Positions 29,801 to 46,595 of a stretch of DNA of 64,000 bases are shown here, piece by piece. Under the pieces are notes generated by a model. It searched no databases and had not been told where the DNA came from. It was given only the letters and a program-made list of their open reading frames with translations. Position 1 is the first letter of the stretch; every line of letters begins with the position of its first letter. The DNA is from Acidobacteriales bacterium 59-55 (GTDB taxonomy: Bacteria; Acidobacteriota; Terriglobia; Terriglobales; Acidobacteriaceae): positions 1-64,000 of the forward strand of contig MKSV01000006.1 in assembly GCA_001897435.1 (NCBI GenBank), in the 5' to 3' direction. The position numbers were made by a program, and so were the translations under genes.

Positions 29801-30187
29801 CTTCAGAACATCCGGCGCCGAGGTGACGGTGACGCTCTCCGTCGCAGAGCCGAGCAGAAGCGTCACGTCCATGCGCACCGTGGTGTTAACAACGACCGCC
29901 ACATTCTCAACCTTGGCCGGTCTGAATCCAGTCTGCACCGCCGTGATCTCATACGTCCCCGGCTGAATCGCTTCAAAGTCATAGTTGCCGCTGTTGTTGG
30001 TCTGCATTGTCTTGCTGGCCCCGCTTCGGGTCTCCTTGATCGTTACCGTCGCACCGGGGACCGCGGCTTTGGTCTGATCCGTAACCGTTCCCAGCAGGTT
30101 TGCATTCACCGCCTGTCCAAGGGTAAAGGTCGAAGCGCTTACGAGCAGAAGAGCGGCGATACCGCCGAGAAATTTTTTAAAGGTCAC
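26879..30187 (-). CDS. Oar-like TonB-dependent receptor 1
   Basis: Outer-membrane active-transport protein of 1102 aa. A Sec signal peptide (to LGQA) is followed by a carboxypeptidase-regulatory beta-sandwich domain at residues about 28-115 (GTVTDQTKAAVPGATVTIKE), a TonB plug region at about 125-250 (LPLGTNRNFQGLLALVPG), and a long beta-barrel ending in the aromatic C terminus KITF. There is no SusD-like partner. The GTG start at 30187 has CTAGGAGACTC upstream. It is flanked on both sides by exported isomerase-like proteins, suggesting uptake of a sugar or glycoside they process. Regulation: a TTGAAACGTT element precedes it. Confidence 0.93.
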   Translation of the reverse strand: MTFKKFLGGIAALLLVSASTFTLGQAVNANLLGTVTDQTKAAVPGATVTIKETRSGASKTMQTNNSGNYDFEAIQPGTYEITAVQTGFRPAKVENVAVVVNTTVRMDVTLLLGSATESVTVTSAPDVLKTDRADVGIDISSQQAEDLPLGTNRNFQGLLALVPGATKPHFQHSTFFNAAASLSTEVNGQSRLANNTEIEGVDDNERSGLLQVLIPPSEAIQSVSVSTGNYQAEFGRVGGAVTDIILKSGTNDFHGAAYEFNRISALQAKDYFQTGPNPVTVYNYYGGNLGGPIIRDKLFIFGDYLHVSDHQGQFNTITVPTEAFRNGDFSAAPNNIYDPATGNSDGTGRTQFNYMGRANVMDPARISPIAQKIMALVPLPNVPGGGLSSNYTGVTHFIRKTNSFDVKADQNLRGEDHLSVRYSWQKVDQDQQALFGLAGGPSHDGAHGTQTAYNTAANYTHVFSPVLLTEVRLGLNHYKNIAKQHDYGSDASAAIGIPGVNVDPSTSGLTGIDIAGFSSPIVGTGASYPWVRGETNIDLVNNWTKIQGNHSLKFGAEVRRVRDDLQQGQVFGQRGIFRYRDGQTGLKGGPKTGQANDFASFLLDIPNQVGRDVGVQDASWRESQVFAYAQDTWQANSKLTLTYGLRWELYVPPTPRRAGDYSNYDPITNTLIIAGLGKNPMDLGMKTRFTYFAPRLGVAYRLDDKTVVRAGYGMSYESYPDNLNTYATNYPLKQNNSFDSLSSYTQAQEPDGTPASMAAGFPAPLLAPIPPDGIIHDAPPQAYNVINLNWKAPYVQSWNAAVQRALPAGFVLDVAYVGNVGVGLAQNYNLNAGFVAGAGAKGQPEYTAFGRTASSTVFKQAGSSYHSLQVKLDHRFTNGLSATSAYTYQKGMGYSTSSGSGVGGTSIYLDFSRNYSRLSNDRTHTFVQSFIYQLPFGKGKKWLNTGVGKWVAGGWQVSGVLSLETGTPFSVTASGASLNAPSNTQVANIDGKFHKLKGIGDSKAWFDTSVFSQPTTAALGNTGLLSFIGPGFFNLDASARKQFPLTERVNLEFRAEAFSITNTPQFGNPSSSITNSNFGHIDGANGGANGNRVMELAGKITF

Positions 30188-30298
30188 GAGAGTCTCCTAG
30201 AAGGTCCAGCAATGTAATCGAATACAAAACGGAGAGATGATTGTTTGAACAGCGAACGAAACTTTATCAGGTCCATTCCGTTAATAGCAACAAAAAAA

Positions 30299-31356: not shown

Positions 31357-32544
31357 TTACTGCGATACCCGCAGAAGCAGGACGCCGTGTCCGGGAACCG
31401 TCACCTTGTAGGGTGAGCTGATGGTTCCGAGATCCTTGTGAAGCCACAGATCCTTTGCCTTCACCGCGCGGCTGAAGCCGAGCTTGCTGAAGTCGACCTC
31501 GGTGCTGAGCGGAGATGGGTGACGGTTGAAGACGGCAACCGCCTTCGAGCCATCGGCCAGCGAGCGCGTCCATATCTCGATCGGTCCCTCGGCGCTGGCG
31601 CGGTCGCCCTGCTTGCCTGCCGCATCCTGATCGATGGCGATGACATCGCGATTTGTCAAAATCGAAATCGTCTCGGGAGTCATCGTGCTCAAGTCGTTAC
31701 CCGCCAGCAGAGGCGCGGCGAGGATGGCCCACAGGCTCATGTGCGTGCGGTATTCCTCGGCGGTCATGCCTCCGTTACCGACCTCGAGCATGTCGGGATC
31801 GTTCCAGTGGCCGGGGCCGGCAAAGCGCGAGAGACCGGCCTGGCTGAAGCCGATCTGTTCCATGCGCGCGTAGTGGTCCGAGATATCTCCCGTGGTGCGC
31901 CATGAATTGCCGCCGACAGTTGTGCCCCATCGCCACACCGCATCGTTGCCGTATTGGCAGAGGCTGTACACGATGGGGCGGCCCGTGCTGCGCAGCGCAT
32001 CGCGCATCTTGATGTAGGAGTCGACCATGATCTTGTTGGCGGCCTCGGGTGTCGGCGCGTCCTTCATTACCGTGCGCAGGCCGCACAGATCGTACTTGAG
32101 ATAGTCGATGCCCCAGGCGGCGTAGGTGCGGGCATCCTGCAGTTCATGGCCGTAGCTGCCCTCGTACTTGGCGCAGGTCAGGGGACCGGGTGAAGAGTAG
32201 ATGCCCAGCTTGAGTCCCTTGCTGTGAACAAAGTCGGCGAGCGCCTTCATGTCGGGAAATTTACTGTTGGGCTGGATGTTTCCCTGCGCGTCGCGCTTGC
32301 CCTGCCAGGTGTCGTCGATGTTGATGTAGGTATAGCCCGCGGCCTTCATGCCGCTCGAAACCATGGCCTCGGCCTGGGCGCGAATAGTGGCGTCGTCGAC
32401 CTTGCCGTGAAAGTGGTTCCAACTGTTCCAGCCCATCGGAGGCCGAGCTGCGAGGCCATTCTGCTGCGCCGGCGCGATGCCGGGAGCGGCGAGGACAAGA
32501 GCGGCCAATGCAATACAGGCAAAACGCATTTGAGAGAGCGGCAT
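31357..32544 (-). CDS. secreted GH27 alpha-galactosidase
   Basis: Glycoside hydrolase family 27, 395 aa, with a Sec signal (FACIALAALVLAAPGIAPAQ). The family opening PPMGWNSWNHF is present. Nucleophile D152 in YLKYDLCG and acid/base D220 in SWRTTGDI are both conserved. The catalytic barrel is followed by a C-terminal beta-sandwich. Family members remove alpha-galactose, and some remove beta-L-arabinopyranose. ATG 32544 is preceded by AGGAGTTCC. It lies 116 nt downstream of GH51 on the same strand, probably co-transcribed. Confidence 0.92.
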   Translation of the reverse strand: MPLSQMRFACIALAALVLAAPGIAPAQQNGLAARPPMGWNSWNHFHGKVDDATIRAQAEAMVSSGMKAAGYTYINIDDTWQGKRDAQGNIQPNSKFPDMKALADFVHSKGLKLGIYSSPGPLTCAKYEGSYGHELQDARTYAAWGIDYLKYDLCGLRTVMKDAPTPEAANKIMVDSYIKMRDALRSTGRPIVYSLCQYGNDAVWRWGTTVGGNSWRTTGDISDHYARMEQIGFSQAGLSRFAGPGHWNDPDMLEVGNGGMTAEEYRTHMSLWAILAAPLLAGNDLSTMTPETISILTNRDVIAIDQDAAGKQGDRASAEGPIEIWTRSLADGSKAVAVFNRHPSPLSTEVDFSKLGFSRAVKAKDLWLHKDLGTISSPYKVTVPGHGVLLLRVSQ

Positions 32545-32660
32545 GTGTGGAACTCCTAAGAGAGACATCCGGTAAAAATTCGGCGGCGAGCGCCGTGAGC
32601 TTTATACATGAACGGCAGGGTAGATGCGAGCCGTCCCGGAAAAGGGTAAACAAGTAACGG

Positions 32661-34721
32661 CTACTGCATCGGAATCTCGATGACCGTTACGCTGGCGTTC
32701 GGGAACTTGTGGGTGAAGGCTCCGTGGACCGGGTCTGTCCGGGTTACGGGCTTCACCCGGTTCGGATCCTCTTCATCGTTCTCGGCCAGAATGCTGTCCG
32801 CGGCGAGCGTCGTCACCTTGGCACTCGTCCCCTTCACGCCGAGGTTAGCAAGATCGAAGCTGGCGGTCAGCGATCGCGTCAGATGGCGATTCACGCAGAA
32901 CAGAACCAGCGATTTGCCTCCTTCGGACTCGGCTGCCGTCACGTCGAGATAGGGAACATCGGTGATCTCGGGCAGGCGATTGACTCCATGCGTGACGGTG
33001 TATTCGGGCGAGTTCGACTTCACGTTGAGCAAGGTTCGCGGCTGCGCGTTTGCGTACTCGCGAAGCACCCAGTAGGCGGGCGCGCCGTAGACCTGACCGC
33101 GCTTCTTCCAGATGCCGCCGAACTCCATAATGCCGGTCATGTCGGAGATGGGAACGATGCCGGAGTCACGCACGATCATGTTGAGGAAGCCGCCCGCAAA
33201 CAGGGCGCCGCCCATGTTGGTGAAGTTCAGCCCCGTACGCGAACGGGAGATCATCAACCACTCGGTGAATGCCGTCTTGACATGGTCGCGGTGTGGGCTC
33301 TGCTGAATCTGGTCGTGGATGGCATGCATCTGCTTGCCTAATCCGATGGGGAGCGCGAGGCTCGCCATGGTGCGAAACTCCGCCGTGGAGTTGTGCATCT
33401 GCACGGCGTCGTTCACGACGAAGTGAGTCGAGAGGTAGTCGAACGTTCCCGGAGGGTTCGTCAACTGCGCGGCGTTCCAGTCGTGGAAGTGGTCTTCGTC
33501 GGCGCCGGTGGCGATCAGACGCGCGTGAGGATCGACCTTGCGTACTGCTTCGCTGACCTCACGCGTAACTGCTGCGACGCGGCCCAAGGTGGGATAGCCG
33601 ACCTGGAAGTCGCCCCAGAGTTCGTTACCCAACTCCCACAGCAGGCCGCCCTTGTGATCGGCCCAGTGCTGGTTGACATACTGCACCCACGCGGCCGCCT
33701 GCGCGGGTGTATCGGTGCCGAGGTTCAGCGCGATCTGCGGCTCGGCGTGAATGAGCTTGCAGAACTCCAGAAACTCGTCCGTGCCGAAGGTGTTGTACTC
33801 GGGAATTCCCCACGAGACATTCAGCCTGCCGATTCTCTTGTCGCGCGGACCGATGCCGTCTCTCCAGTCATACGCCGAGGTAAAGTTGCCGCCGAACCGG
33901 ATCAGCGGCGAGTGCAGATCGCGCGCCATGGCGATCTCGTCCGGGTCCATGCCATCGATGTTGTCGGCCGGCATCAGCGATGCCTGGTCCACCTCCACGC
34001 GGGCATCGTCCTTGAGCGCGATGACGAAATCCACCGGCTCCAGCGGAGCCACTTGGCCCTGCGTGAGCGCAAGCCGGAAGGTGTACTTCGTCCACTTCGT
34101 TGCAGACGCATCAAGATTCTGCGTCGCCAGCACGCGGCCTTCGTGATTGCGCGCGCGGAGAGAGACGGTGACCTGGGCCGGTCCGCGCACATGCTTCAGC
34201 CAGACGCTGCCGGTATAGGTGAGCTCGCGATGAACGGGCAGATAGACCCGCTGCCGGACGCCGACCTCTTTGTCAGGCAGTGACATGATCAGCAGCGAGC
34301 GGCTCGAGTTCGCCGCGTCTCCCCACACCGGCAGATAGCGATTTCCCTGTGCCTGGTCGAGCGGCTCCCACGGCAAGGGGATGCCGAGCTGCGATGCCCT
34401 CTCCAACTCGGGACGGGCGCGCAGCATGTTGGCGACGTTGCCGGCGCTCCACAGACCGCCCTCGAAGCTGGGATTCTCAAGCACGTCGGCCCACAGGCCG
34501 CCGTAGGTCGACTTGCCGATGGGTTCGAGAAAGCTGCCGAAGACGCTGGTTGGAATCGTCTGCGGAGTGGCAGGGCGAGTGATCTGCACTTCGATCGGCG
34601 CGTCGGAGATCGTGCCGCTTTCCGTAATCTGGGCCGGGAGAGGAAGGCTTGCCGCGAGAACGAATAGCCCTAGAGACAGAAGCTGCGCGGCGGATTTGGC
34701 ACGGGAAGATGAAAGATTCAC
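32661..34721 (-). CDS. secreted GH51-type alpha-L-arabinofuranosidase
   Basis: 686 aa with a signal peptide ending near LPLPAQ. An N-terminal carbohydrate-binding-like region (residues about 45-260, containing FLEPIGKSTYGGLWADVLENPSFEGG) precedes the GH51 barrel; acid/base E367 in WELGNELWG and nucleophile E487 in TAFTEWLM, then a C-terminal beta-sandwich. Releases L-arabinose side chains from arabinoxylan, arabinan or arabinogalactan. GTG start at 34721 with AAGGAGAC upstream. A LacI-type operator lies 28 nt before the start. Export to periplasm or outside is clear from the signal; intracellular GH51 enzymes usually lack one. Confidence 0.9.
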   Translation of the reverse strand: MNLSSSRAKSAAQLLSLGLFVLAASLPLPAQITESGTISDAPIEVQITRPATPQTIPTSVFGSFLEPIGKSTYGGLWADVLENPSFEGGLWSAGNVANMLRARPELERASQLGIPLPWEPLDQAQGNRYLPVWGDAANSSRSLLIMSLPDKEVGVRQRVYLPVHRELTYTGSVWLKHVRGPAQVTVSLRARNHEGRVLATQNLDASATKWTKYTFRLALTQGQVAPLEPVDFVIALKDDARVEVDQASLMPADNIDGMDPDEIAMARDLHSPLIRFGGNFTSAYDWRDGIGPRDKRIGRLNVSWGIPEYNTFGTDEFLEFCKLIHAEPQIALNLGTDTPAQAAAWVQYVNQHWADHKGGLLWELGNELWGDFQVGYPTLGRVAAVTREVSEAVRKVDPHARLIATGADEDHFHDWNAAQLTNPPGTFDYLSTHFVVNDAVQMHNSTAEFRTMASLALPIGLGKQMHAIHDQIQQSPHRDHVKTAFTEWLMISRSRTGLNFTNMGGALFAGGFLNMIVRDSGIVPISDMTGIMEFGGIWKKRGQVYGAPAYWVLREYANAQPRTLLNVKSNSPEYTVTHGVNRLPEITDVPYLDVTAAESEGGKSLVLFCVNRHLTRSLTASFDLANLGVKGTSAKVTTLAADSILAENDEEDPNRVKPVTRTDPVHGAFTHKFPNASVTVIEIPMQ

Positions 34722-34748: not shown

Positions 34749-34767
34749 ATTGTAAACGCTTGCATAA
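34749..34767 (-). promoter_or_regulatory. LacI/GalR-type operator upstream of GH51
   Basis: ATTGTAAACGCTTGCATAA; on the - strand it reads TTATGCAAGCGTTTACAAT and fits the cre-like pattern TGNAANCGNTNNCA at every fixed position. It sits immediately upstream of the GH51-GH27 pair. Confidence 0.6.
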
Positions 34768-34836: not shown

Positions 34837-35943
34837 TCATTGCATCGGCGCCGGCGCCATGTGCCTCGGTTGCAGGCTGACCGCAATTTTCATCTCAGCC
34901 TCCGCCTGATCCTTCTTGCCCATCCGCCCCAGCGTGAGTCCGTAGTAATAATGCGCAGGCTGATACTTCGGCGCGCTTGCCACGGCCCGGGCCAGATAGT
35001 CCTCGGCTTTGGCGTAGTCCTTTGCCCGATACGAGAGGATCCCCATTCCCGTCAGTGCACCTCCGTGCTTCGGGTCGCGCTCCAGGGCTTTGCGGAAGAG
35101 CGGCTCGGCCTCTGCATCGTGCTGCCCGTCCAGCGCAATCTGGCCAAGTTCGTAGTACGACTCCGTCTGCATCGGCTGAAGCGCGATCGAACGCTCGAAC
35201 TCCTCCTTTGCATCGGCGGTACGCAACTGCCTTTCGAGCAGGCGGCCCAGACCGTAGTGCGCCGAGGCGTCGCCGGGACGCGCCGCAAGATAGGCGCGGT
35301 AGTGGCGCTCGGCGGCGGCAGGCTGCTCCTGATCGGCCTCGACCCGCGCCAGCGCGTAGATGGCGGTGAGGTCGCCGGGCTTCAGAGCAAGCGCGGCATT
35401 CAACGCTTCGGCAGCAGGTTCGAGCAGATGCATTCCGTGCGCCTGAATGCCCAGATCGGTGAGCAGCGTGGGATCGTCGGGAAGGCTCTTGCGAGCGTGT
35501 TGCAGGCATTCAAGCGCCGCCTGCTGATTGCCGGCAGAGCGAGCCTGGAGCGCCAGCGCCGTAGCCGCTTGAAGCTCTCCTTTGCGAGCATCCGGGTCGC
35601 GCAGATTGGTGGCAAGCACCGTCTCAAAGCAGTCCATCGCCTCCGGATAGCGATGCTGCGCAAGCAGAATTGCTCCCAGCGCGTTATTGGCCACAGGAGA
35701 ATTGGGACTTACAGCGAGCGCATGTTTCAACAGCCGCTCGGCCTCAGCCGCATCCCCCTGACCGGCACGAATGCGGGCGAACTCGGTCAGCTCCTCGACA
35801 TCATCGGGATGAGCGGCGAGGTAAGTCCGGAGCTGCGCTGCCGTCTGCGGAGCCGGAGTCTGTCCGGCAGAGACGGCAGGCACCGCGGCAAACGCAAGCG
35901 CGAGCACAAGAGCGCGTCCGAAGCTGGTGAGAGGCTGGCTCAT
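34837..35943 (-). CDS. secreted TPR-repeat protein 2
   Basis: 368 aa. Sec signal peptide MSQPLTSFGRALVLALAFAAVPAVSAGQ, followed by about nine tetratricopeptide repeats filling the rest (for example EAERLLKHALAVSPNSPVANNALGAILLAQ and AEPLFRKALERDPKHGGALTGMG). No other domain, so it is a binding or scaffold protein in the periplasm or at the surface. It is directly downstream of TonB receptor 2. ATG 35943 gives an ideal signal peptide but has no ribosome binding site, because the receptor's terminator hairpin and T-run abut it; the alternative ATG at 36015 would read through the hairpin. Confidence 0.82.
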   Translation of the reverse strand: MSQPLTSFGRALVLALAFAAVPAVSAGQTPAPQTAAQLRTYLAAHPDDVEELTEFARIRAGQGDAAEAERLLKHALAVSPNSPVANNALGAILLAQHRYPEAMDCFETVLATNLRDPDARKGELQAATALALQARSAGNQQAALECLQHARKSLPDDPTLLTDLGIQAHGMHLLEPAAEALNAALALKPGDLTAIYALARVEADQEQPAAAERHYRAYLAARPGDASAHYGLGRLLERQLRTADAKEEFERSIALQPMQTESYYELGQIALDGQHDAEAEPLFRKALERDPKHGGALTGMGILSYRAKDYAKAEDYLARAVASAPKYQPAHYYYGLTLGRMGKKDQAEAEMKIAVSLQPRHMAPAPMQ

Positions 35944-35983
35944 AAAAAGAGGAGGGCAGGAGACCTTGCCGTCTCCCGCCCTC
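35944..35983 (-). terminator. intrinsic terminator after TonB receptor 2, abutting the TPR 2 start
   Basis: On the - strand GAGGGCGGGAGAC pairs with GTCTCCTGCCCTC (13 bp, one mismatch) around GGCAAG and is followed by CTCTTTTT and then at once by the ATG of the TPR gene. Confidence 0.65.
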
Positions 35984-36031
35984 TGAGGATAACTCCGCAA
36001 TAGCCCGGCGCTCATCTGTGCGCCGCGCCGG

Positions 36032-39000
36032 TTAGAACTGAATTCGCCCGGTCAACTGTATGTTCCTTGGTCCGTTGATCGTATTCGTCGGAACACCGAA
36101 GAAGCGGTCGTAGGGATTCATGTTTGGAGTCATGAAGACGTGGCGGTTGAAGGCGTTCAGCAACTCAACTTTGAAGGTGAACGTCACGTTTTCCGTGATG
36201 GGCGTCTTCTTGATGATGCTGAAATCCTCGTTGAAATATTTGAAGTTGCGAATCTCGCCGGTAACGCGCGGGATATTTCCAAAGAGGAAGCCGCCGTTAT
36301 CGCAGGTTTCGCAAGACTGATTTTCCGGGGTGATATGAACGGCACGATGAATGCGGTTGCTCGGTGTGTTTTGGTCGGTAAGGGCAGGCGCATTTTGCAG
36401 CGCGGCATACCCGGGGTTGTCCGAGTCTCCGTTGGGGTTCAACGGGATGGCCAAACCATTGAAGATCGAATCGACGTTCGGATCAGGCCCGGGAAGGCTA
36501 TTGCCGTTCTTCAACTCGCGGAAGGGATCGATCTTGCCATTTTTGAAAGCATTGCTGGCAAGGGACGTGCCCGGAATGCGTGTGAAGCTGATGCAGTTGT
36601 CCCAGCCGGGAATGCCGCTGGCGCAACCGAAACTGAACGGCTGGCCCGACTGATAGCGCTGCACGCCGCCTATCTCGAAGCCGCTGATGAGAGCACGCGC
36701 CAGAGGATTGCTGAAGTTGAGGAACCTCTTGTTCTTGCCGAAGGGAAGTTCATAAAGATAGCTGATGACAAAGGTGTGCGGGATGTCCTGATTAGAGAGC
36801 GACTTCTGACTCTTGGAATCGAAGGGATCCTGCTCCTGTTGAACACCGTTGGTCACGTTGATGATGGAATCGGCGTTGGTGATGGTCTTCGACCAGGTGT
36901 AGGAGGCCTGCATGTTCAGGCCCTGTGAGAAGCGCCGCTCCACGCTGGCGATCAGCGCTTCGTAGGAAGAGTGGCCGACATTCTGCAGGCAGCAGTCGGT
37001 CGCGATGTAGCCGTACTGCGGGAATGGGCGAAGCGCCTGCTGCACTCGGCCATTGAAGGGACCGTGGCCATTCTGTCCACTGTAGGGCAAGCTGATTCCA
37101 TTGGCCGCCAAATCGTAGCTCTGGAGAGCATCGCCACGCGCGAAGTTGGACTTCGGCATGTTATTGATGTTCTCTTCCTGCGACTTCAGGTGGGCGCCCG
37201 AATTGCCGATATAGCCGATGGTCAGGATCAGATCCTTGGCCAGTTCCTGCTGAACTTGCAGGTTCCATTGATTCAGCATTCCCGGTCGGCCATAGGACGC
37301 CTTGACGAAGTTTCCGAAGTGAACGGGCGAGTCCGCATTTCCATTGTCAAACTGGCCGGGGTCCAGGTTGATGCCAACCGTATACGCCGGCATTCCTCCA
37401 TCGATGACAAACGCCGGATCGAAGCCGTTGGAGCCGAACGCGGGATTGGCGGTATAACCCGTGCGGGTGTCGCCGCCGAAGTCGCTGTACTGTAGCGGCG
37501 CATACAGGATGGCGAAGCCGCCGCGAAAGACGGTCTTGCCCGCGCTGTTGCCCGGAGTGTACGCGAAGCCGATGCGTGGAGCGATGTCCTTGACCCAGGT
37601 ATCGGCCCAGCGCTTGTTGCAGTTGTCGCAGTTGGAGGCGAAGACCAGCGCTCCCGGCGTGCCGGTGTAGGGGTCGATAGCCGTCGTGCTGAAGTTGGAG
37701 GTATCGTTATACTTCTCTTTCCGCGGCCGGTCGACGCTGTACCGGATGCCCAGGTTCAGCACCAGATTGTTGGTCGCCTTCAAGTCGTCCTGAAAGAACC
37801 CGGCGTAGTAGTCCTGAATCCACTGTGCCTGGTGGAAGGGAACGCTTACGTTGGCAAAATCTCCCTGCCCGAGCAGCAGACTGGCGAATCCATTCCCGGT
37901 ACCTCGCTGAAAGTCGCCGATCTGGGTCGCCTTGGTTTGGGCATTCTGGAAGCTGAAGTTTCCATTGACGAGGCCATTGGCAATCGCCGAGTACTGCTGA
38001 TAACGATAGTCGATGCCGAACTTGAAGCTGTTGCGGCCCTTCTGCCAGCTGATCGAATCGTTAAGACGAATGCCGTTGTCGATGTTGTCGTCGTTCTGGT
38101 TGCGGCTGAGGTCGCTGTAACCCTGGACGACAAAGTGCGGCATGCCGGTGGTGATATTACCGATACCAAGCTGCTCCGCGTAGTTAACGTTGCCCGCGGA
38201 CTGGAACGAGCCGTTGATGGAGTTCGTGCGATTGGTGCCGATATTCAGGTGGTTCAGAATGTTTGGCGTGATGATGAAATCCCAGCCGCCGCGTCCGAAG
38301 TGCGTGATAAAGTCCTGCGTCTGCGTGATGTAGTCCTGCGGTCCGAGGAACGCGCGGTTGGTCGGATTCAACCGGAAGTTCTCGCGTGTGTTGTAGGAGC
38401 CGTAGATCTTGTTCCTGTCGTTGATTGCCTCATCGATACGCACCGTATAGGTCGTGTTGGTGATCGGCGAAGAGGTGGTCAGGGTGTAGTTATTGTTCAG
38501 CGCGCCATTGGTCGGTTCCGGATACAGCTTGGCAATATTCTGTCCGACTGTGCTGAAGCGGGCCTGCGGGATCACGTTGAAGTCCGCCGGGAAGGGTGAG
38601 GTCGCCGTGGCAGGCGCGGTTCCGAACGGGAGACGGCAGCGAACTCCACCCACAGTCTGCGTCGTCGAGGGGTCAAAGATCTCGCCATTGAAGATGGGCT
38701 TGCCGTCGCAGGGATTGATCTGGCCGGTTGCTCCGTTGACCAGTTGGTCCTGGAAATTTCCGGTGCGCTCCGCCATGGTCGGGACCGTGCTGGTCTGCGG
38801 ACCGCCGAGTGTCTGACGATACTGCTCCCACGCGAAGAAGAAGAAGGTTCTGTCCCTGCCGTTGTAGAGGTGAGGAATCACTACCGGGCCGCCAAAGCTG
38901 CCGCCGTAGTCGTTCTTCTTGTCCGGGGCGCGATTGAAGTCCTTTTCGTGCGGATCGCCGATGGATTGGTAGTAGGCCTTCTGGCCGTTGTTGAACCAGC

Positions 39001-39835
39001 TATTGGCGTTCAGCGCCTCGTTTTTGAAGATGTTGAAGACCGTGCCGTGGAAGGAGTTGGTGCCGCTCTTGGTGGCGAAGTTTTCGATACCGCCCGTGGT
39101 GCGGCCAAACTCAGCCGACGGAGTTGAGGTGGTGACCTTGAACTCGGAGATCGCTTCAACCGAAGGAGCGGTTTCGTCGAAAGACGAGCCGTTCTCCGTG
39201 CGGATGACCGAGGCGCCGTCCAGCAGAATCTCGTTGCCGAAGTTCTGGCCGCCGCCCAGCTTGTTGATGAAGATGCCGTTGCTGTTATTCGCCGAGCCCG
39301 GACCGGTAGTGCCGGGAACGAGGAAGATAAACGACTCGACCGCGCGCATCGCGCCGACGCCGCCGAGTGCGAGCGGAAGATCGACGATCTGCCGTGTGGT
39401 CACGGTTCCGCCCACTTCGGAGGATTGCGTCTCGATGGTGGGCGCGTTGGACTGGACGGTCACGGTCTCGCTCGCGCCGCCGACGTCCAGGGTGATATCG
39501 AAGGCGGTGACAGTTCCGATGCGGACCTCAACACCGGTATTGACCGTCTGCTTGAAGCCGGATGCAGTGGTGGTGATGGTGTAGCGCCCCAGTTGAATGG
39601 AGGGAAAGCGGTAGCTGCCGGCGCTGGTGGAGACAGTTTCGTAGGTGGAACCGGTCGCTTCGCTCTTGGCAACGATCTTCGCGTTGGGAACCTGCGCGCC
39701 GGTGGTGTCGAGAACGTTGCCGGAGATCGATCCCTGATTCGTCTGCGCGGCAGCCAGGCCGGCGAAGAGGAAGAGAAGCGCCACCACTGCGGCGCAGCCA
39801 AGACTGAAACGTTTCACTAAACTGGATGGGTTCAC
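36032..39835 (-). CDS. Oar-like TonB-dependent receptor 2
   Basis: Outer-membrane transporter of 1267 aa. Signal peptide LGCAAVVALLFLFAGLAAAQ; carboxypeptidase-regulatory domain at residues about 33-115 (GSISGNVLDTTGAQVPNAKIV); TonB plug to about 260; the remainder is a large beta-barrel ending GRIQF. GTG at 39835 is preferred to ATG 39877 because TTCGGAGGTCTT lies directly before it. It is followed by a terminator and a secreted TPR gene and preceded by a cre-like operator, a TPR gene and the CRTAC1 gene, all on the same strand. Likely imports an oligosaccharide made by the local hydrolases. Confidence 0.93.
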   Translation of the reverse strand: MNPSSLVKRFSLGCAAVVALLFLFAGLAAAQTNQGSISGNVLDTTGAQVPNAKIVAKSEATGSTYETVSTSAGSYRFPSIQLGRYTITTTASGFKQTVNTGVEVRIGTVTAFDITLDVGGASETVTVQSNAPTIETQSSEVGGTVTTRQIVDLPLALGGVGAMRAVESFIFLVPGTTGPGSANNSNGIFINKLGGGQNFGNEILLDGASVIRTENGSSFDETAPSVEAISEFKVTTSTPSAEFGRTTGGIENFATKSGTNSFHGTVFNIFKNEALNANSWFNNGQKAYYQSIGDPHEKDFNRAPDKKNDYGGSFGGPVVIPHLYNGRDRTFFFFAWEQYRQTLGGPQTSTVPTMAERTGNFQDQLVNGATGQINPCDGKPIFNGEIFDPSTTQTVGGVRCRLPFGTAPATATSPFPADFNVIPQARFSTVGQNIAKLYPEPTNGALNNNYTLTTSSPITNTTYTVRIDEAINDRNKIYGSYNTRENFRLNPTNRAFLGPQDYITQTQDFITHFGRGGWDFIITPNILNHLNIGTNRTNSINGSFQSAGNVNYAEQLGIGNITTGMPHFVVQGYSDLSRNQNDDNIDNGIRLNDSISWQKGRNSFKFGIDYRYQQYSAIANGLVNGNFSFQNAQTKATQIGDFQRGTGNGFASLLLGQGDFANVSVPFHQAQWIQDYYAGFFQDDLKATNNLVLNLGIRYSVDRPRKEKYNDTSNFSTTAIDPYTGTPGALVFASNCDNCNKRWADTWVKDIAPRIGFAYTPGNSAGKTVFRGGFAILYAPLQYSDFGGDTRTGYTANPAFGSNGFDPAFVIDGGMPAYTVGINLDPGQFDNGNADSPVHFGNFVKASYGRPGMLNQWNLQVQQELAKDLILTIGYIGNSGAHLKSQEENINNMPKSNFARGDALQSYDLAANGISLPYSGQNGHGPFNGRVQQALRPFPQYGYIATDCCLQNVGHSSYEALIASVERRFSQGLNMQASYTWSKTITNADSIINVTNGVQQEQDPFDSKSQKSLSNQDIPHTFVISYLYELPFGKNKRFLNFSNPLARALISGFEIGGVQRYQSGQPFSFGCASGIPGWDNCISFTRIPGTSLASNAFKNGKIDPFRELKNGNSLPGPDPNVDSIFNGLAIPLNPNGDSDNPGYAALQNAPALTDQNTPSNRIHRAVHITPENQSCETCDNGGFLFGNIPRVTGEIRNFKYFNEDFSIIKKTPITENVTFTFKVELLNAFNRHVFMTPNMNPYDRFFGVPTNTINGPRNIQLTGRIQF

Positions 39836-39962
39836 AAGACCTCCGAAAATTGCTGCTGTTCTTTTGCGTAATCGCATCTACCGAGTCATGCCGTACCGCA
39901 CCGTACTCAAGCTCGATGGAAATCTCTGTACCGGTGTCGATCTCTCTACTAGAGTCCGTCGA

Positions 39963-39978
39963 CTGTAAACGGTTACAG
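39963..39978 (-). promoter_or_regulatory. LacI/GalR-type operator upstream of TonB receptor 2
   Basis: CTGTAAACGGTTACAG, a near-perfect palindrome that fits TGNAANCGNTNNCA. It is 128 nt upstream of the chosen GTG, in the 260-nt gap behind TPR 1, and is therefore placed to control the receptor. Confidence 0.6.
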
Positions 39979-40095
39979 AATTTTGTTCCGAAACAAGTGT
40001 GAACCTGGTCTTACAGATATGTCAATCTTTAGTTTGAAATTTTACTCAACCCGTGAACCTTGCCGGTAACGACTCGCGATGCTGTTCCCCGCCGA

Positions 40096-41151
40096 CTACT
40101 TCGTCTCCGGGGTCGAGTGGGTGCCGTACAGCTTCGCGCTCAGATCCAGCTCTGACCGGGACTTTTCTTCAGATCCCAGGCGATGGTAGAGACGGCCTAG
40201 CTGATAGTGCAATCGCGGATTTTTGGGATCGAGGGCCACGGCCTGCTCCAGTTGCTCTCGCGCCTCCGGCAGGCGGTCGTCCTGCTGATAGGCCCGCGCC
40301 AGTTGCTCGCGGCACTTCGCGTCTTTGGGAGCGATTTTAATGGCCGACTCCAGCACGGCGACCGCCTCGGCGGTGCGGTTCTGCGAGATCAGCAGTGTGC
40401 CGTAATTCAGCAGCGGCTGCTCGCTCGGGTGCGCCGAGCTCCGTTGCGAAGTCACCGCCTCCTGATACACGCGGAGTGCATCGGGAATCCGGTTCTGCGC
40501 CTCGTAGGAGAGCCCCAGATTGTTCAGCGCCTTGACGTCGCCCGGCACAAGCGCCAGAACCCGGTCGAAGGCCTTCTCCGCCGCGACAAAGTTACCTTGA
40601 TTCATCTGCGAGCGCCCCAGGTCATACCAGACATCCGCGTTCTGCGGGTCTTCCTGGACAGCGCGTTCGAGCCAACGGATGGCATCGAGATAGTCATTGA
40701 GCAGAACATAGTCCAGCGCAACGATCCTCAGATCGTTCGCCGTCGGTCGCCGAATCGCCGCTGCCCTGGTAAAGACTTCGAGGGACTCCTTCGGCTTGTT
40801 CGCGCGTTGAAGCACGTAGCCCAGCAGATAGAGCGCGGGCGCCGAGCGCAGATCCTGCTCCAGATAGGATTTAACCGCATGTTCCGCTCCGGCGAGATCG
40901 CCGGCATTGGCGAGGCTCCTGCCCTCCATCAGAAGCGCATCCGCGGCCTGAGCCTCGGTCGCCTGCTCCTTCGCCGTGGAGGAAGCGGCAAAGAGCTTCG
41001 CCGCCTCTGCATAACGCTTCTCGGCATACGCCTGCTGTCCTTGCGCATAGAGCGAAGGCTGCTGCGCCGCTGCTATTCCGGCGATCCATACGGTCAGCAG
41101 AACAACGCCGAGCCATGCCGCACGTCTCGCATTGGCATTCGGCGTCTTCAT
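40096..41151 (-). CDS. secreted TPR-repeat protein 1
   Basis: 351 aa with a Sec signal peptide (AAWLGVVLLTVWIAGIAAAQ) and about eight TPR units from residue 35 to the end (for example NADVWYDLGRSQMNQGNFVAAEKAFDRVLALVPGDVKALNNLG). No lipobox is visible, so it is probably soluble. The start overlaps the CRTAC1 stop by 4 nt (ATGA), so the two products are made together and may form a complex. Confidence 0.87.
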   Translation of the reverse strand: MKTPNANARRAAWLGVVLLTVWIAGIAAAQQPSLYAQGQQAYAEKRYAEAAKLFAASSTAKEQATEAQAADALLMEGRSLANAGDLAGAEHAVKSYLEQDLRSAPALYLLGYVLQRANKPKESLEVFTRAAAIRRPTANDLRIVALDYVLLNDYLDAIRWLERAVQEDPQNADVWYDLGRSQMNQGNFVAAEKAFDRVLALVPGDVKALNNLGLSYEAQNRIPDALRVYQEAVTSQRSSAHPSEQPLLNYGTLLISQNRTAEAVAVLESAIKIAPKDAKCREQLARAYQQDDRLPEAREQLEQAVALDPKNPRLHYQLGRLYHRLGSEEKSRSELDLSAKLYGTHSTPETK

Positions 41152-42968
41152 CGCGCGGGTTTGCTCCCCGCAGCCGGAGGCGGAGTCTTGTCGGGCTCCT
41201 CGATCTTCATCACCCGGTCGCCCTGCACGTTATCGAGCGTTTGCACGATGCCGCTCGGCCAGCGAATTTCGATCGTCTTCGCCACCGCATCCGCGCCCAG
41301 GCCGAAGTGCGCCCGCTTGTCGCTTGCCGAAAGATAGCTCGACGCCGTGGTGACGGTCACGTATTGCGGCCCCTTCGTTGTCGTCAGTTTGATTTCGGCT
41401 CCGATGCCATCGCGATTGCTGCGATGCCCCACCAGCTCGATGGTCAGCCAATGATTCCGGGTCGCGGTCTCGTTATGGAGAATATGCGCCGGTCCGCCGT
41501 TGGTCGTGACTACAGCGTCGAGCCGGCCATCGTTATCGAGATCGCCGATGGCCATGCCCCGTCCCACCCACGGCTCCGCGAAGACCTTGCCCGACTCCTT
41601 GGAGACATCGACAAACCCCTTGCCGGTGTTTCGCACCAGCAGCATCGGCTCCTTGTAGTGAAGCTGCGGATAATTCTGCTCGATCGTGTCGAGATCGTGT
41701 CCCTGCGCGACCAGCAGGTCCTTCCAGCCGTCGTTGTCATAGTCGAGAAAGCGTATGCCCCAGCCGGAGTGCAGCAGCGTAATCGCGGCCAGGCCGGAGA
41801 CATAGCTCTCGTAGTTAAAGCTGCCGTCGCCGTTATTGCGATAGAGCGCATACTTCTGGTTGGCCAGATCGGTGATGACGAGGTCCGGCAGGCCATCGTT
41901 GTTATAGTCTTCGAAGTCGATTCCCATTCCCGCAAAGGTGCGGCCGTCGCCATCGACTGCCATCTCCGCCATCAGCCCCATCTCCTCGAACGTGCCGTCG
42001 CCCTTGTTGAGATAGAGAAACTCAAGCATCGAATCGTTTGCCACCGCCACATCGATCTTGCCGTCGCGGTTGAAGTCCGCGATGGCGAGGCCAAGTCCCT
42101 TGCCCGGAACGCCCATGCCAATCTTGTTGGCGACCTCGGTGAAGTGCCCGTTGCCGTCGTTGTGATAGACCAGCGCCGAGACTGCGGGAAAGGTATCGGG
42201 ATGGCAGTAGGCGCGATAGCCCTCGCGATGCTCGCCGCACCAGATGTCGTTGAAGTCCCACTTCATGTAGCGCAGCACGATCAGGTCGAGCAGACCGTCG
42301 TTGTCGAGGTCGACCCACGCCGCGCTCGTCGACCACCCGCTGCCGCCGGTGCCCGACTTCTCCGTCACATCGGTAAAGGTCCCGTTGCCGTTGTTGTGAT
42401 AGAGCCGGTTGCCGCCGTATGCGGTGACGTACAGATCCTCGTAGCCGTCATTGTCGTAGTCCCCCACGGCGACGCCCATGCCGTAGCCGACTCCCTGCAA
42501 TCCGGCATGCACGGTCACGTCCTCGAAGGTGCCGTCCATTTTCTGGTGGTAGAGCCGGTTCCAGTCCTTCTCGCTCTTCTTCTCGGGGATCGTGCCCAGG
42601 GCGGTCGGGTCGGCCAGCGGCGCGCCATTCACAAAGAAGATGTCGAGCCGGCCGTCGTTGTCGTAGTCGAAGAGCGCGACCCCGGACCCCATCGTCTCGA
42701 TCAGATATTTCTTCGAGGTGTGCGAGGCGACTCCGGTGAAGTCCACTCCGCTCGCCGCTGTTGTATCCACAAAATTTCCCGGCACGATTCCGGCAGACGT
42801 GGCGGGCGAGGGAGCAGGATTGGCGGTCGTCTGTCCGGGCAAACCGGCCGGAAGCATGAGGGCACAGACGACCAATGCCCCGGCGCGCGGGAGACTTCCG
42901 GCGCGCCATAATTTTCCGCTGCTTAATCTCGCCGCGCCATCCCGCTTCCGTTCAACCCGCATCCTCAC
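41148..42968 (-). CDS. CRTAC1-family FG-GAP/VCBS protein with ASPIC/UnbV domain
   Basis: 606 aa, signal peptide ending near LPGQ. At least seven FG-GAP/VCBS repeats with calcium-binding DxDxDG loops (DYDNDGRLDIFF, DYDNDGYEDLYV, DLDNDGLLDLIV, DFNRDGKIDVAV, DYNNDGLPDLVI, DYDNDGWKDLLV, DLDNDGRLDAVV), enough for one beta-propeller. An ASPIC/UnbV domain closes the protein (NHWLTIELVGHRSNRDGIGAEI). Such propellers bind ligands or other surface proteins; no enzymatic motif is seen. Starts: GTG 42968, or ATG 42962 two codons later. First gene of the CRTAC1-TPR operon. Confidence 0.9.
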   Translation of the reverse strand: MRMRVERKRDGAARLSSGKLWRAGSLPRAGALVVCALMLPAGLPGQTTANPAPSPATSAGIVPGNFVDTTAASGVDFTGVASHTSKKYLIETMGSGVALFDYDNDGRLDIFFVNGAPLADPTALGTIPEKKSEKDWNRLYHQKMDGTFEDVTVHAGLQGVGYGMGVAVGDYDNDGYEDLYVTAYGGNRLYHNNGNGTFTDVTEKSGTGGSGWSTSAAWVDLDNDGLLDLIVLRYMKWDFNDIWCGEHREGYRAYCHPDTFPAVSALVYHNDGNGHFTEVANKIGMGVPGKGLGLAIADFNRDGKIDVAVANDSMLEFLYLNKGDGTFEEMGLMAEMAVDGDGRTFAGMGIDFEDYNNDGLPDLVITDLANQKYALYRNNGDGSFNYESYVSGLAAITLLHSGWGIRFLDYDNDGWKDLLVAQGHDLDTIEQNYPQLHYKEPMLLVRNTGKGFVDVSKESGKVFAEPWVGRGMAIGDLDNDGRLDAVVTTNGGPAHILHNETATRNHWLTIELVGHRSNRDGIGAEIKLTTTKGPQYVTVTTASSYLSASDKRAHFGLGADAVAKTIEIRWPSGIVQTLDNVQGDRVMKIEEPDKTPPPAAGSKPAR

Positions 42969-43227: not shown

Positions 43228-43244
43228 ATGTAAACGATTGCAGT
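43228..43244 (+). promoter_or_regulatory. LacI/GalR-type operator upstream of the GH5-like gene
   Basis: AATGTAAACGATTGCAGTT fits TGNAANCGNTNNCA at every fixed position and lies 61 nt before the ATG of the GH5-like gene. Confidence 0.6.
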
Positions 43245-43305: not shown

Positions 43306-44442
43306 ATGAAACTCAAGTTTGCCGCCGTACTCTGCCTTGCCGTTCTCGAAGCGGCCACCGCCTTTGCCCAGCCCCGCTCCCGCTGGTCCGAGCAGCAGGC
43401 TAACGCCTGGTACGCAAAGCAGCCGTGGCTGGTCGGCGCAAACTACGTTCCCTCCGACGCCATCAACGAGCTGGAGATGTTTCAGGCCGCCACCTTCAAT
43501 CCCGCGCTGAACGACAAAGAGCTTGGCATGGCCGAGTCCATCGGGATGAACACCATGCGCGTCTTCCTTCAGGACCAGCTCTGGCAGCAGGACCCCGAAG
43601 GCTTCAAGAAGCGCCTCGACACTTTTCTCGACATCGCCGCCAAGCACCACATCAAGCCTCTGCTCGTCCTGTTCGACTCCTGCTGGGAGACCGATCCGCA
43701 CCTCGGCCCACAGCACCCGCCCATTCCCGGCGTCCACAACTCCGGCTGGGTGCAGAGCCCGGGCAAGCGTGAGTTGATGGACCGCTCCTACGAGCCGAAG
43801 CTCGAAGCCTACGTCAAGGGCGTCGTCGGAGCCTTCGCCAACGACGACCGCGTGCTCGGCTGGGATATCTGGAACGAGCCCGACAACCGTGGTGGAGACG
43901 TAGAAGAGGACGTTCCCGCCAAGGTCAAGCGCGTCGATGAACTTCTGCCCAAGGCCTTTGCCTGGGCGCGCTCGGCGAATCCATCGCAGCCCCTGACCAG
44001 CGGCGTCTGGACTGGCGATTGGTCGAATCCCGCCAAAGAGAGCGCCACTACCAAGATTCAGCTTGCCGAGTCTGACGTGATCTCCTTCCACAACTACGGC
44101 TGGCCCGAGGAGTTCGAAGCCCGCATCAAGGAGCTTCAGCCTCATCACCGCCCCATCCTGTGCACCGAGTACATGGCGCGCGGCAACGGGAGCACCTTCG
44201 ACGGCTCGCTGCCCATCGCGAAGAAGTACAACGTCGCCGCCATCAACTGGGGGCTGGTTGCCGGTAAGACGCAGACTTACCTGCCGTGGGATTCCTGGAA
44301 GCGCCCTTATGTGCTGATTCAGCCGACCATATGGTTCCACGAGGTCTTCCGCCAGGACGACACTCCGTATCGTCAGCACGAGGTCGATCTCATCCGCCAG
44401 CTCACCGGACGCGGTACGCCTTCTGCTGCACCGCAAAAATAA
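43306..44442 (+). CDS. secreted GH5-like (clan A) glycoside hydrolase
   Basis: 378 aa with a Sec signal (KLKFAAVLCLAVLEAATAFAQ). TIM-barrel hydrolase of the cellulase superfamily; acid/base E191 in GWDIWNEPDN and nucleophile E288 in ILCTEYMARG, at the expected strand-4 and strand-7 spacing. I cannot place it in a GH5 subfamily, so substrate (mannan, xylan, glucan, galactan) is open. ATG 43306 is used because the ORF-track start has no signal peptide at its N terminus. Followed 59 nt later by the DUF4965 gene on the same strand. Confidence 0.85.
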   Translation: MKLKFAAVLCLAVLEAATAFAQPRSRWSEQQANAWYAKQPWLVGANYVPSDAINELEMFQAATFNPALNDKELGMAESIGMNTMRVFLQDQLWQQDPEGFKKRLDTFLDIAAKHHIKPLLVLFDSCWETDPHLGPQHPPIPGVHNSGWVQSPGKRELMDRSYEPKLEAYVKGVVGAFANDDRVLGWDIWNEPDNRGGDVEEDVPAKVKRVDELLPKAFAWARSANPSQPLTSGVWTGDWSNPAKESATTKIQLAESDVISFHNYGWPEEFEARIKELQPHHRPILCTEYMARGNGSTFDGSLPIAKKYNVAAINWGLVAGKTQTYLPWDSWKRPYVLIQPTIWFHEVFRQDDTPYRQHEVDLIRQLTGRGTPSAAPQK

Positions 44443-44501: not shown

Positions 44502-46595
44502 ATGTTTATCGCTGCCTTTCGCCGTTCGCTTCTCTTCTCGCTTATCGCCGTAGCTCCTATGCTGGGCCAGCAGGCCACCCAACAGGTAGAGCGGCCACCG
44601 GCCACGCCGCTCATCACCCACGATCCCTACTTCAGCATCTGGTCCAACACCGACAAGCTGACCGACTCGCCTACCCGCCACTGGACGGGCCACCCCCAGC
44701 CGCTCGCCGGGCTGGTGCGCGTCGACGGCAAGCCCTTCCGCATCATGGGCGGCGAGCCGCGCAATGTGCCCGCGATGGAGCAGACCTCGCTGAAGCTCAC
44801 GCCGCTGCACACGCGCTACAGCTTTGCCGGAGCGGGCGTCGAGATCGACCTCGCCTTCTTCACCCCGGCCTTCCTCGACGACATGGATCTGCTCTCCCGT
44901 CCGGTGACCTATCTCACCTGGACGGCGCACTCGACCGACGGCGCGCAGCACGATGTCTCCGTCTTCCTCGGCGCCAGCCCGGAGATCGCCGTCAGCATGA
45001 CCGGACAGCAGGTCGTCTTCTCGCGCAACCATACGGCATCGACCTCGGTGCTCTCGGTCGGCACCCGCGATCAGGCCGTGCTCAATCGATCCGGCGATGA
45101 CCTGCGCATCGACTGGGGCTACTTCCACATCGCCGTACCCAACAACGAGACGGCGAAGACCGCCATCAGCGAACACCCCGACCGCGACTTCGCCGGCGAT
45201 GGCACGCTGCCCGCGGCCGACACCATGGACGGCCCCGTCGCAGCGAACCGTCGCGCGCCGCAACTGGCCGTCGTTCTTCCGCTCGGCTCCGTCGGCTCCG
45301 CGCCGGTATCGAAGCATGTGCTGGTCAGCTACACCCAGGACTACTCCATCCAGATGTTCCAGCAGAACCTGCGGCCCTACTGGCAGCGCAACAACAAGCC
45401 TGTCGCCACGATGCTCGACGAGGCCGAGCATGACTACGCTACGCTCGACGCCCGCGGCGACACCTTCGACAAGCAGTTGAGTGCCGATCTGACCCGCGCC
45501 GGTGGAGAGCACTATGCCTGGATCTGCACGCTCGCCTATCGGCAGTCCATCGCCGCGCACAAGCTGGTCGCCGACGCCGACGGCAACCCCCTGCTCTTCG
45601 CCAAGGAGAACTTCTCGAACGGCGACATGGCTACGGTCGACGTGCTCTATCCCTCCTCTCCGCTCTTTCTCTTCTTCAACCCGAAGCTGCTGGAGGCGCA
45701 GTTGCTGCCCGTGCTCCGGTACGCCGCCATGCCCAACCGCTGGCGCTTCCCCTTCGCTCCGCATGACCTTGGCCAGTATCCGCTGGCCAACGGGCAGGAG
45801 TACGGCGGCGGCGAGAAGACCGAAGAGAACCAGATGCCGGTCGAAGAGTCCGGCAACATGCTGATCCTCGCCGACGCGCTCGCCCGCGCCGAAGGCAACG
45901 CCGCGCTTGCCCAGCGCTTCTGGCCGCAACTGACGCAGTGGGCTGAGTACCTGCGCGAGAAGGGACTCGATCCCGAGAACCAGCTCTCCACCGACGACTT
46001 CGCCGGCCACCTCGCGCACAACGCCAACCTCTCCATCAAGGCCATCGACGCCCTCGCCGCCTACGCCGACCTGGCGAAGCTGCTCGGCCACGACGCCGAA
46101 GCGAAGCAGTACAGCGCCACGGCAAAAGGCATGGCGGAGAAGTGGATCGGCATGGCGAAGGACGGCGACCACTACAAGCTCGCCTTCAACAGCCCCGGCA
46201 CCTGGAGCCAGAAGTACAACCTGGTATGGGACAAGGTGCTCGACTACAACCTCTTTCCCAAATCCGTCCGCGACACCGAGATCGCCTTCTACCAGACCAA
46301 GCTGAACACCTACGGCCTTCCGCTCGACAGCCGCAAGGACTACACCAAGCTCGACTGGGAGATCTGGACGGCTACGCTGGCGGACACGCCCGCCGCATTC
46401 AAGGCGCTGATCGATCCTGTCTATCGCTGGACCAACGAGACCACCTCCCGCGTCCCGCTCACGGACTGGTACGACACCAAGACCGGCAAGCAGGTCGGCT
46501 TCCAGGCCCGCAGCGTCGTCGGCGGCGTCTTCATCAAGGCGCTCTCCGACAAGTCGCTCGCAGAGAAGTGGCGCGGCAAGAGCGCGTCAAAATAA
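44502..46595 (+). CDS. secreted glutaminase A-like protein (DUF4965/DUF5127/DUF1793)
   Basis: 697 aa with a signal peptide ending near APMLGQ. It matches the architecture of fungal GtaA-type glutaminases and bacterial relatives: an N-terminal beta-sandwich (PLITHDPYFSIWSNTDKLTDSPTRHWTG), then an (alpha/alpha)-barrel-like region with AWICTLAYRQSIAAHKL and EESGNMLILADALARAEGN. In soil bacteria such proteins commonly sit in sugar-degradation loci and their (alpha/alpha)6 fold resembles glycosidases, so glutaminase activity is not certain here. ATG 44502 follows GGAGATCC. A strong hairpin terminates the gene. Confidence 0.82.
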   Translation: MFIAAFRRSLLFSLIAVAPMLGQQATQQVERPPATPLITHDPYFSIWSNTDKLTDSPTRHWTGHPQPLAGLVRVDGKPFRIMGGEPRNVPAMEQTSLKLTPLHTRYSFAGAGVEIDLAFFTPAFLDDMDLLSRPVTYLTWTAHSTDGAQHDVSVFLGASPEIAVSMTGQQVVFSRNHTASTSVLSVGTRDQAVLNRSGDDLRIDWGYFHIAVPNNETAKTAISEHPDRDFAGDGTLPAADTMDGPVAANRRAPQLAVVLPLGSVGSAPVSKHVLVSYTQDYSIQMFQQNLRPYWQRNNKPVATMLDEAEHDYATLDARGDTFDKQLSADLTRAGGEHYAWICTLAYRQSIAAHKLVADADGNPLLFAKENFSNGDMATVDVLYPSSPLFLFFNPKLLEAQLLPVLRYAAMPNRWRFPFAPHDLGQYPLANGQEYGGGEKTEENQMPVEESGNMLILADALARAEGNAALAQRFWPQLTQWAEYLREKGLDPENQLSTDDFAGHLAHNANLSIKAIDALAAYADLAKLLGHDAEAKQYSATAKGMAEKWIGMAKDGDHYKLAFNSPGTWSQKYNLVWDKVLDYNLFPKSVRDTEIAFYQTKLNTYGLPLDSRKDYTKLDWEIWTATLADTPAAFKALIDPVYRWTNETTSRVPLTDWYDTKTGKQVGFQARSVVGGVFIKALSDKSLAEKWRGKSASK

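Follow-up and report, generated by a model that had tools for sequence, protein, structure and literature searches.

Acidobacteria are abundant users of soil polymers, and their genomes encode dozens of TonB-type receptors and no SusD. A locus of Acidobacteriales bacterium 59-55, contained in the 64,000-nucleotide stretch of DNA analyzed here (the window), raises the question of what takes the place of SusD. It combines an Oar-like TonB-type receptor with TPR proteins and a CRTAC1-type protein, a concrete three-part module that can be tested. The first-pass annotation of this stretch had proposed a SusD-less uptake system in which the TPR proteins, perhaps with the CRTAC1-type protein, serve as glycan-capturing lid or delivery partners.

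As that annotation described, four genes with the named domains lie on the minus strand between positions 34837 and 42968. The CRTAC1 gene (41148..42968, minus strand; likely ATG at 42962) encodes an exported protein of 606 amino acids (aa) with the FG-GAP propeller and UnbV domain that mark the CRTAC1/ASPIC-UnbV family: seven FG-GAP (DxDxDG) repeats and a C-terminal UnbV/ASPIC domain. Pfam matches six FG-GAP_3 repeats and UnbV_ASPIC, and we counted seven DxDxDGxxD motifs in the propeller; judging from these motifs, the protein may bind Ca2+. Its nearest solved structure is human CRTAC1 (9etn; sequence match, E=5e-20). It differs from the family as known in being bacterial, in lying in a putative uptake locus and in being paired with TPR proteins or, among its paralogues, fused to them. 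The start of TPR1 (40096..41151, minus strand; 351 aa) does overlap the end of the CRTAC1 gene, by the 4 bp of an ATGA. The receptor (36032..39877, minus strand; 1281 aa) consists of a CarboxypepD_reg domain and an OMP_b-brl_4 barrel (838/838 positions, 571 bits); neither Plug nor TonB_dep_Rec was matched, and TonB_C genes exist in the genome. TPR2 (34837..36015, minus strand) has 392 aa, or 368 aa if its start is at 35943. Both TPR proteins have TPR as their Pfam match. A simple heuristic assigns SPI-type leaders to all four proteins, in keeping with the secretion claimed for the TPR pair. Genes were called with our own open reading frame and codon method, by which small genes may be missed.

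The functional locus extends beyond these four genes, which are flanked on either side by glycosidase genes and operators. Downstream lie genes for a GH51-like alpha-L-arabinofuranosidase (32661..34721, minus strand), likely co-regulated and with homologues in L070 (62%) and L081 (54%), and for a GH27-type alpha-galactosidase identified by its Melibiase_2 domain (31357..32568, minus strand). On the other side, a GH5-like glycosidase gene (43306..44442, plus strand) diverges from the CRTAC1 gene. Homologues of it (65-66%) adjoin the CRTAC1 orthologue in L071 and, with one paralogue intervening, lie close to it in L073. In the window, the GH5-like gene is followed by a gene for a DUF4964/DUF5127/GtaA six-hairpin protein (44502..46595, plus strand), which has a 48% partial homologue in L081. 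A second Oar-like receptor gene (26879..30187, minus strand) has no CRTAC1 or TPR partner of its own.

A LacI-type palindrome, TGTAANCGNTTACA, occurs at three places: 87 bp 5' of the receptor ATG (39964..39977, TGTAACCGTTTACA), between the CRTAC1 (minus) and GH5-like (plus) genes (43229..43242) and 5' of the GH51-like gene (34751..34764). A weaker operator-like palindrome with two mismatches lies 5' of the second receptor gene (30213..30226). Across 4.92 Mb of genome, the strict pattern TGNAANCGNTTNCA is matched ten times; three of these matches fall within 8.5 kb here, versus 0.017 expected (P about 8e-7). CRTAC1 loci hold 5/10 of the strict sites (P about 4e-5), two of these five in the paralogous locus L060. 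The gap between TPR1 and the receptor spans 218 bp and contains a perfect palindrome; for this reason the genes probably form two transcription units, CRTAC1-TPR1 and receptor-TPR2, rather than one. Both units and the glycosidase genes likely belong to one regulon, and these operator-like sites suggest that a LacI-family protein probably controls it. The genome has 12 LacI genes, one of which adjoins the CRTAC1 gene of L055. Among relatives, similar intergenic sites were found only in L071, L073 and L078, and there were none in our sample of the phylum (described below). A cobalamin-riboswitch-like tail 5' of the CRTAC1 gene was rejected, having no Rfam match. CAZymes and sites for a sugar regulator, two features of PULs, are thus both present (GH51-, GH27- and GH5-like genes; LacI-type sites with presumed control), and no SusD lipoprotein, the mark of a SusCD-type PUL, lies beside the receptor.

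That acidobacterial receptors lack SusD, as the annotation had held for most of them, proved correct: PF14322 was found in 0/149 Acidobacteriota genomes, with a positive Bacteroides control, and the SusD HMM had no match in the acidobacterial loci. We compared these loci with 56 Bacteroidota relatives that had enough upstream sequence. SusC-SusD lies directly 5' of the CRTAC1-type gene in 40/56 and within three genes in five more (45/56). The query behind these loci was a Bacteroidota CRTAC1-type protein, so the figures apply to a single CRTAC1 subfamily. A Hymenobacter locus, for example, reads LacI, GH127-type, SusC, SusD, CRTAC1. None of the Bacteroidota loci has a TPR gene neighboring the CRTAC1-type gene. 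SusC-SusD precedes the CRTAC1-type gene in 2/3 Gemmatimonadota loci and in 0/6 from Verrucomicrobia. Given the absence of SusD from the 149 genomes and the TPR-free SusC-SusD-CRTAC1 arrangement in Bacteroidota, the acidobacterial TPR gene occupies the SusD position (receptor-TPR-CRTAC1 versus SusC-SusD-CRTAC1). Of our new results this correspondence is the strongest, and no other supports a SusD-less uptake system better. Because TPR and propeller genes recur in the SusD slot, the locus is probably a SusD-less version of the Bacteroidota sugar-uptake operons. Like SusC/SusD PULs, it has a receptor with an N-terminal CarboxypepD_reg domain, CAZymes, regulators and a CRTAC1-type gene. Unlike them, acidobacterial loci lack SusD, have TPR in its slot and an OMP_b-brl_4 receptor, and encode TPR and CRTAC1 proteins that are mostly SPI/Tat types rather than lipoproteins.

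The same genes recur elsewhere in this genome, which holds 13 UnbV genes in eight clusters and about 50-60 paralogues of the Oar-like receptor, all with the same domain architecture. Six of the eight CRTAC1 clusters lie no more than 6 kb from an OMP_b-brl_4 receptor (P=0.0006, permutation of listed gene coordinates), so this proximity is not due to chance. What sets the receptor studied here apart from most of its kind is its company: of 32 receptors that we examined, just 7 have a CRTAC1 gene no more than three genes away, all of them with TPR, and the remaining ~78% mostly lack TPR as well. TPR within two genes accompanies 7/7 receptors that have CRTAC1 and 3/25 that do not (Fisher 3.6e-5), although these enrichment statistics count related loci as independent. 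Two of the genome's own loci, L055 and L057, have the order receptor-TPR-CRTAC1; in L058-L061 the same genes are shuffled. The CRTAC1-linked receptors do not form a single clade; they are dispersed over the receptor tree, requiring six changes for seven receptors, the same as in shuffles, and the pairing has therefore been gained, lost or reshuffled several times. Elsewhere, at L056:6548-11236, a lone CRTAC1 gene adjoins a response regulator gene and one for a histidine kinase of the Reg_prop/Y_Y_Y type. In the related genome locus L083, a 988-aa gene similar in size to that kinase and a response regulator gene lie beside CRTAC1.

Among relatives, CRTAC1 orthologues with 68-76% identity are present in 15/60 family genomes. 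The near-syntenic L070 contains CRTAC1, TPR1 (inverted), receptor and TPR2, then GH43, CRTAC1 and GH51; TPR2 is 45% identical to the TPR protein that follows the receptor there. L074 and L081 have the same gene set in other orders, and in L069, L075 and L083 the CRTAC1 orthologue has no receptor or TPR partners. A PUL-like run, receptor-TPR-TPR-CRTAC1x3-GH5-GH51-GH51-LacI, is found in L084, which was reached via a less closely related CRTAC1 copy (58% identity). We also sampled 20 CRTAC1 loci across the phylum, picked by UnbV score alone: TPR accompanies 17, a receptor 8 and both 8, with the exact order receptor-TPR-CRTAC1 in 5 and no receptor within three genes in 12/20. Counted per gene, TPR makes up 24/86 genes near CRTAC1 versus 0/142 in the background. 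Neighboring genes in these loci include GH3, GH5, GH16, GH20, GH30, GH43 and a sulfatase with FGE. The exact order is also present on Granulicella pACIX901, and similar groupings are found on annotated Granulicella and Acidisarcina plasmids. What is conserved is the gene set, not the exact order; the set for which a conserved order had been anticipated recurs across the phylum, and the exact four-gene order appears only in L070, with TPR1 inverted. This single occurrence would fit a chance neighborhood of unrelated genes, but such an explanation is very improbable, being contradicted by all enrichment tests and by the retention of the gene set in L070, L074, L081 and L084.

If a TPR gene occupies the SusD slot, its product might be a true functional analogue of SusD, a subunit that binds glycan directly and closes the receptor as a lid. 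Besides the slot itself, several observations are consistent with this. SusD is built on TPR-like helices, according to a report on BT_3984 (PMC2954216). Two receptors with TPR and without CRTAC1 (L207 and L215) group as sisters with CRTAC1-linked receptors (100/99 support), and sequence similarity covaries most between TPR and receptor, weakly (Mantel r=0.25, versus 0.12 for TPR-CRTAC1; uncorrected for organism relatedness and biased by using the TPR nearest the receptor). The proteins themselves, however, do not resemble SusD. Modelled with AlphaFold from a single sequence each (pLDDT 78-79), TPR1 and TPR2 are plain TPR superhelices that have no SusD-like capture subdomain, and their top 50 PDB fold matches contain consensus TPRs, OGT, APC/C, BBSome and similar structures and no SusD. 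BLAST found no similarity between the TPR proteins and SusD; homology of TPR1 to SusD was accordingly rejected, and by neither sequence nor fold do the TPR proteins belong to SusD/RagB. Other TPR proteins of CRTAC1 loci are likewise pure TPR. By the leader heuristic, TPR1 and TPR2 have no lipobox or surface lipoprotein anchor, and lipoprotein-like leaders are found on 5/64 acidobacterial TPR proteins versus 40/57 SusDs and 67/110 Bacteroidota CRTAC1-type proteins. TPR2 contains no tryptophan. TPR also tracks CRTAC1 even where there is no receptor (17/20 versus 8/20) and, in the loci read, is fused to CRTAC1 (L054, L060, L099, L104 and L106) and never to receptors. We therefore regard a true SusD analogue as distinctly unlikely. 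The canonical superhelix, the missing SusD match and the rarity of lipoprotein-like leaders leave the proposed glycan-capturing lid unsupported, if possible in principle. The simplest reading is that the TPR proteins would act as scaffold or adaptor for CRTAC1, recruited to receptors, a role favored by the TPR-CRTAC1 fusions and by receptor-free TPR-CRTAC1 pairs.

The receptor-free pairs and fusions (L054, L080 and L102) also fit another explanation, in which TPR and CRTAC1 form a general pair, periplasmic or exported, for protein binding or maturation (chaperone, metal or redox related) and are found with receptors simply because both are abundant and co-regulated. The redoxin domain of the L060 fusion, the multihaem and other cytochrome neighbors of some CRTAC1 genes and the occurrence of CRTAC1 beside hydrazine-synthase-like genes (PMC12758564) point the same way. 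Against it stand the enrichment at receptors (P=0.0006), the recurring receptor-TPR-CRTAC1 order, the LacI-type operators common to these genes and the glycosidases, and SusC-SusD-CRTAC1 in Bacteroidota; on balance, we consider a purely general pair rather unlikely. With multihaem cytochromes next to some CRTAC1 and TPR genes and a redoxin domain in others, the two families do not serve glycan uptake alone.

The analysis shows which genes are present, their export signals and recurrence, the operator-like sites, the CAZyme/LacI surroundings, the absence of SusD and the cross-phylum slot match. On this basis we give about even chances to a PUL-type locus that takes up glycan without SusD, its TPR proteins serving as adaptor and its CRTAC1-type protein as an exported component that binds. 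Counting against this reading are the 12/20 phylum loci with no nearby receptor, the CRTAC1 orthologues of L069, L075 and L083, which stand without either partner, and the redox-related neighbors just mentioned. A LacI-family regulator would probably govern induction of the locus. GH51-, GH27- and GH5-like glycosidases, secreted or at the surface, would cut a polymer, probably an arabinose- or galactose-bearing plant polysaccharide or exopolysaccharide if the enzymes indicate the substrate, and the Oar-like TonB-type receptor (OMP_b-brl_4) would import the oligosaccharide, energized glycan transport being read from context. The Ca-propeller CRTAC1-type protein may be an exported ligand- or receptor-binding component, matching the third-gene position of SusC-SusD-CRTAC1 operons. 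Exported TPR proteins would mainly be the scaffold or adaptor that attaches CRTAC1, and perhaps also enzymes, to the receptor through predicted contacts. TPR and CRTAC1 might then jointly do the job of SusD and CRTAC1 in Bacteroidota. At the level of context (SusD absence, recurrence, CAZyme/LacI loci) the system first proposed is supported; its lid step is not. A bolder version, in which SusD was replaced lineage-specifically in Acidobacteriota by a capture/lid complex of OMP_b-brl_4 receptors made of the exported TPR superhelix and the CRTAC1 Ca-propeller, the latter shared with Bacteroidota SusC-SusD-CRTAC1 operons, seems to us quite doubtful.

SusD-less receptors also occur in Xanthomonas CUT loci, which are not known to have CRTAC1 or TPR partners. 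Proteobacterial TonB receptors for plant carbohydrates are the subject of the report on these loci (PMC1790865). Our search of the open-access literature found no paper linking CRTAC1/UnbV/FG-GAP/VCBS with SusD, TonB receptors or TPR partners, and no described function for the CRTAC1-type third PUL gene. This third gene, which follows SusC-SusD in many Bacteroidota operons, appears to be undescribed. In L117-L177, L182, L184 and L187, Bacteroidota SusC-SusD is very often followed by a CRTAC1/VCBS protein of ~1090 aa, mostly lipoprotein-like. Verrucomicrobial CRTAC1-type genes (L179-L181, L189, L192, L193, L195 and L196) have no SusC/SusD and, for the most part, no TPR with them, and two often lie in tandem.

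Several acidobacterial loci show further arrangements. L060:3121-6963 encodes a 1280-aa fusion of CRTAC1 propeller, UnbV, AhpC/TSA-redoxin domain and TPRs, and its gene and a receptor gene point away from each other with a LacI-type operator (7174) between them. In L090, L102 and L105, CRTAC1 genes adjoin multihaem or photosynthetic-reaction-centre-type cytochrome genes, which suggests that the family has a redox-linked setting as well. A tandem receptor-TPR-CRTAC1-TPR-CRTAC1-TPR-CRTAC1 array adjoins GH16 and GH20 genes in L113:4397-19899. Finally, 21/92 acidobacterial CRTAC1 proteins have a Tat-like twin-arginine leader by our heuristic (e.g., L084, L092 and L093), a hint that they may fold or load a cofactor before export.
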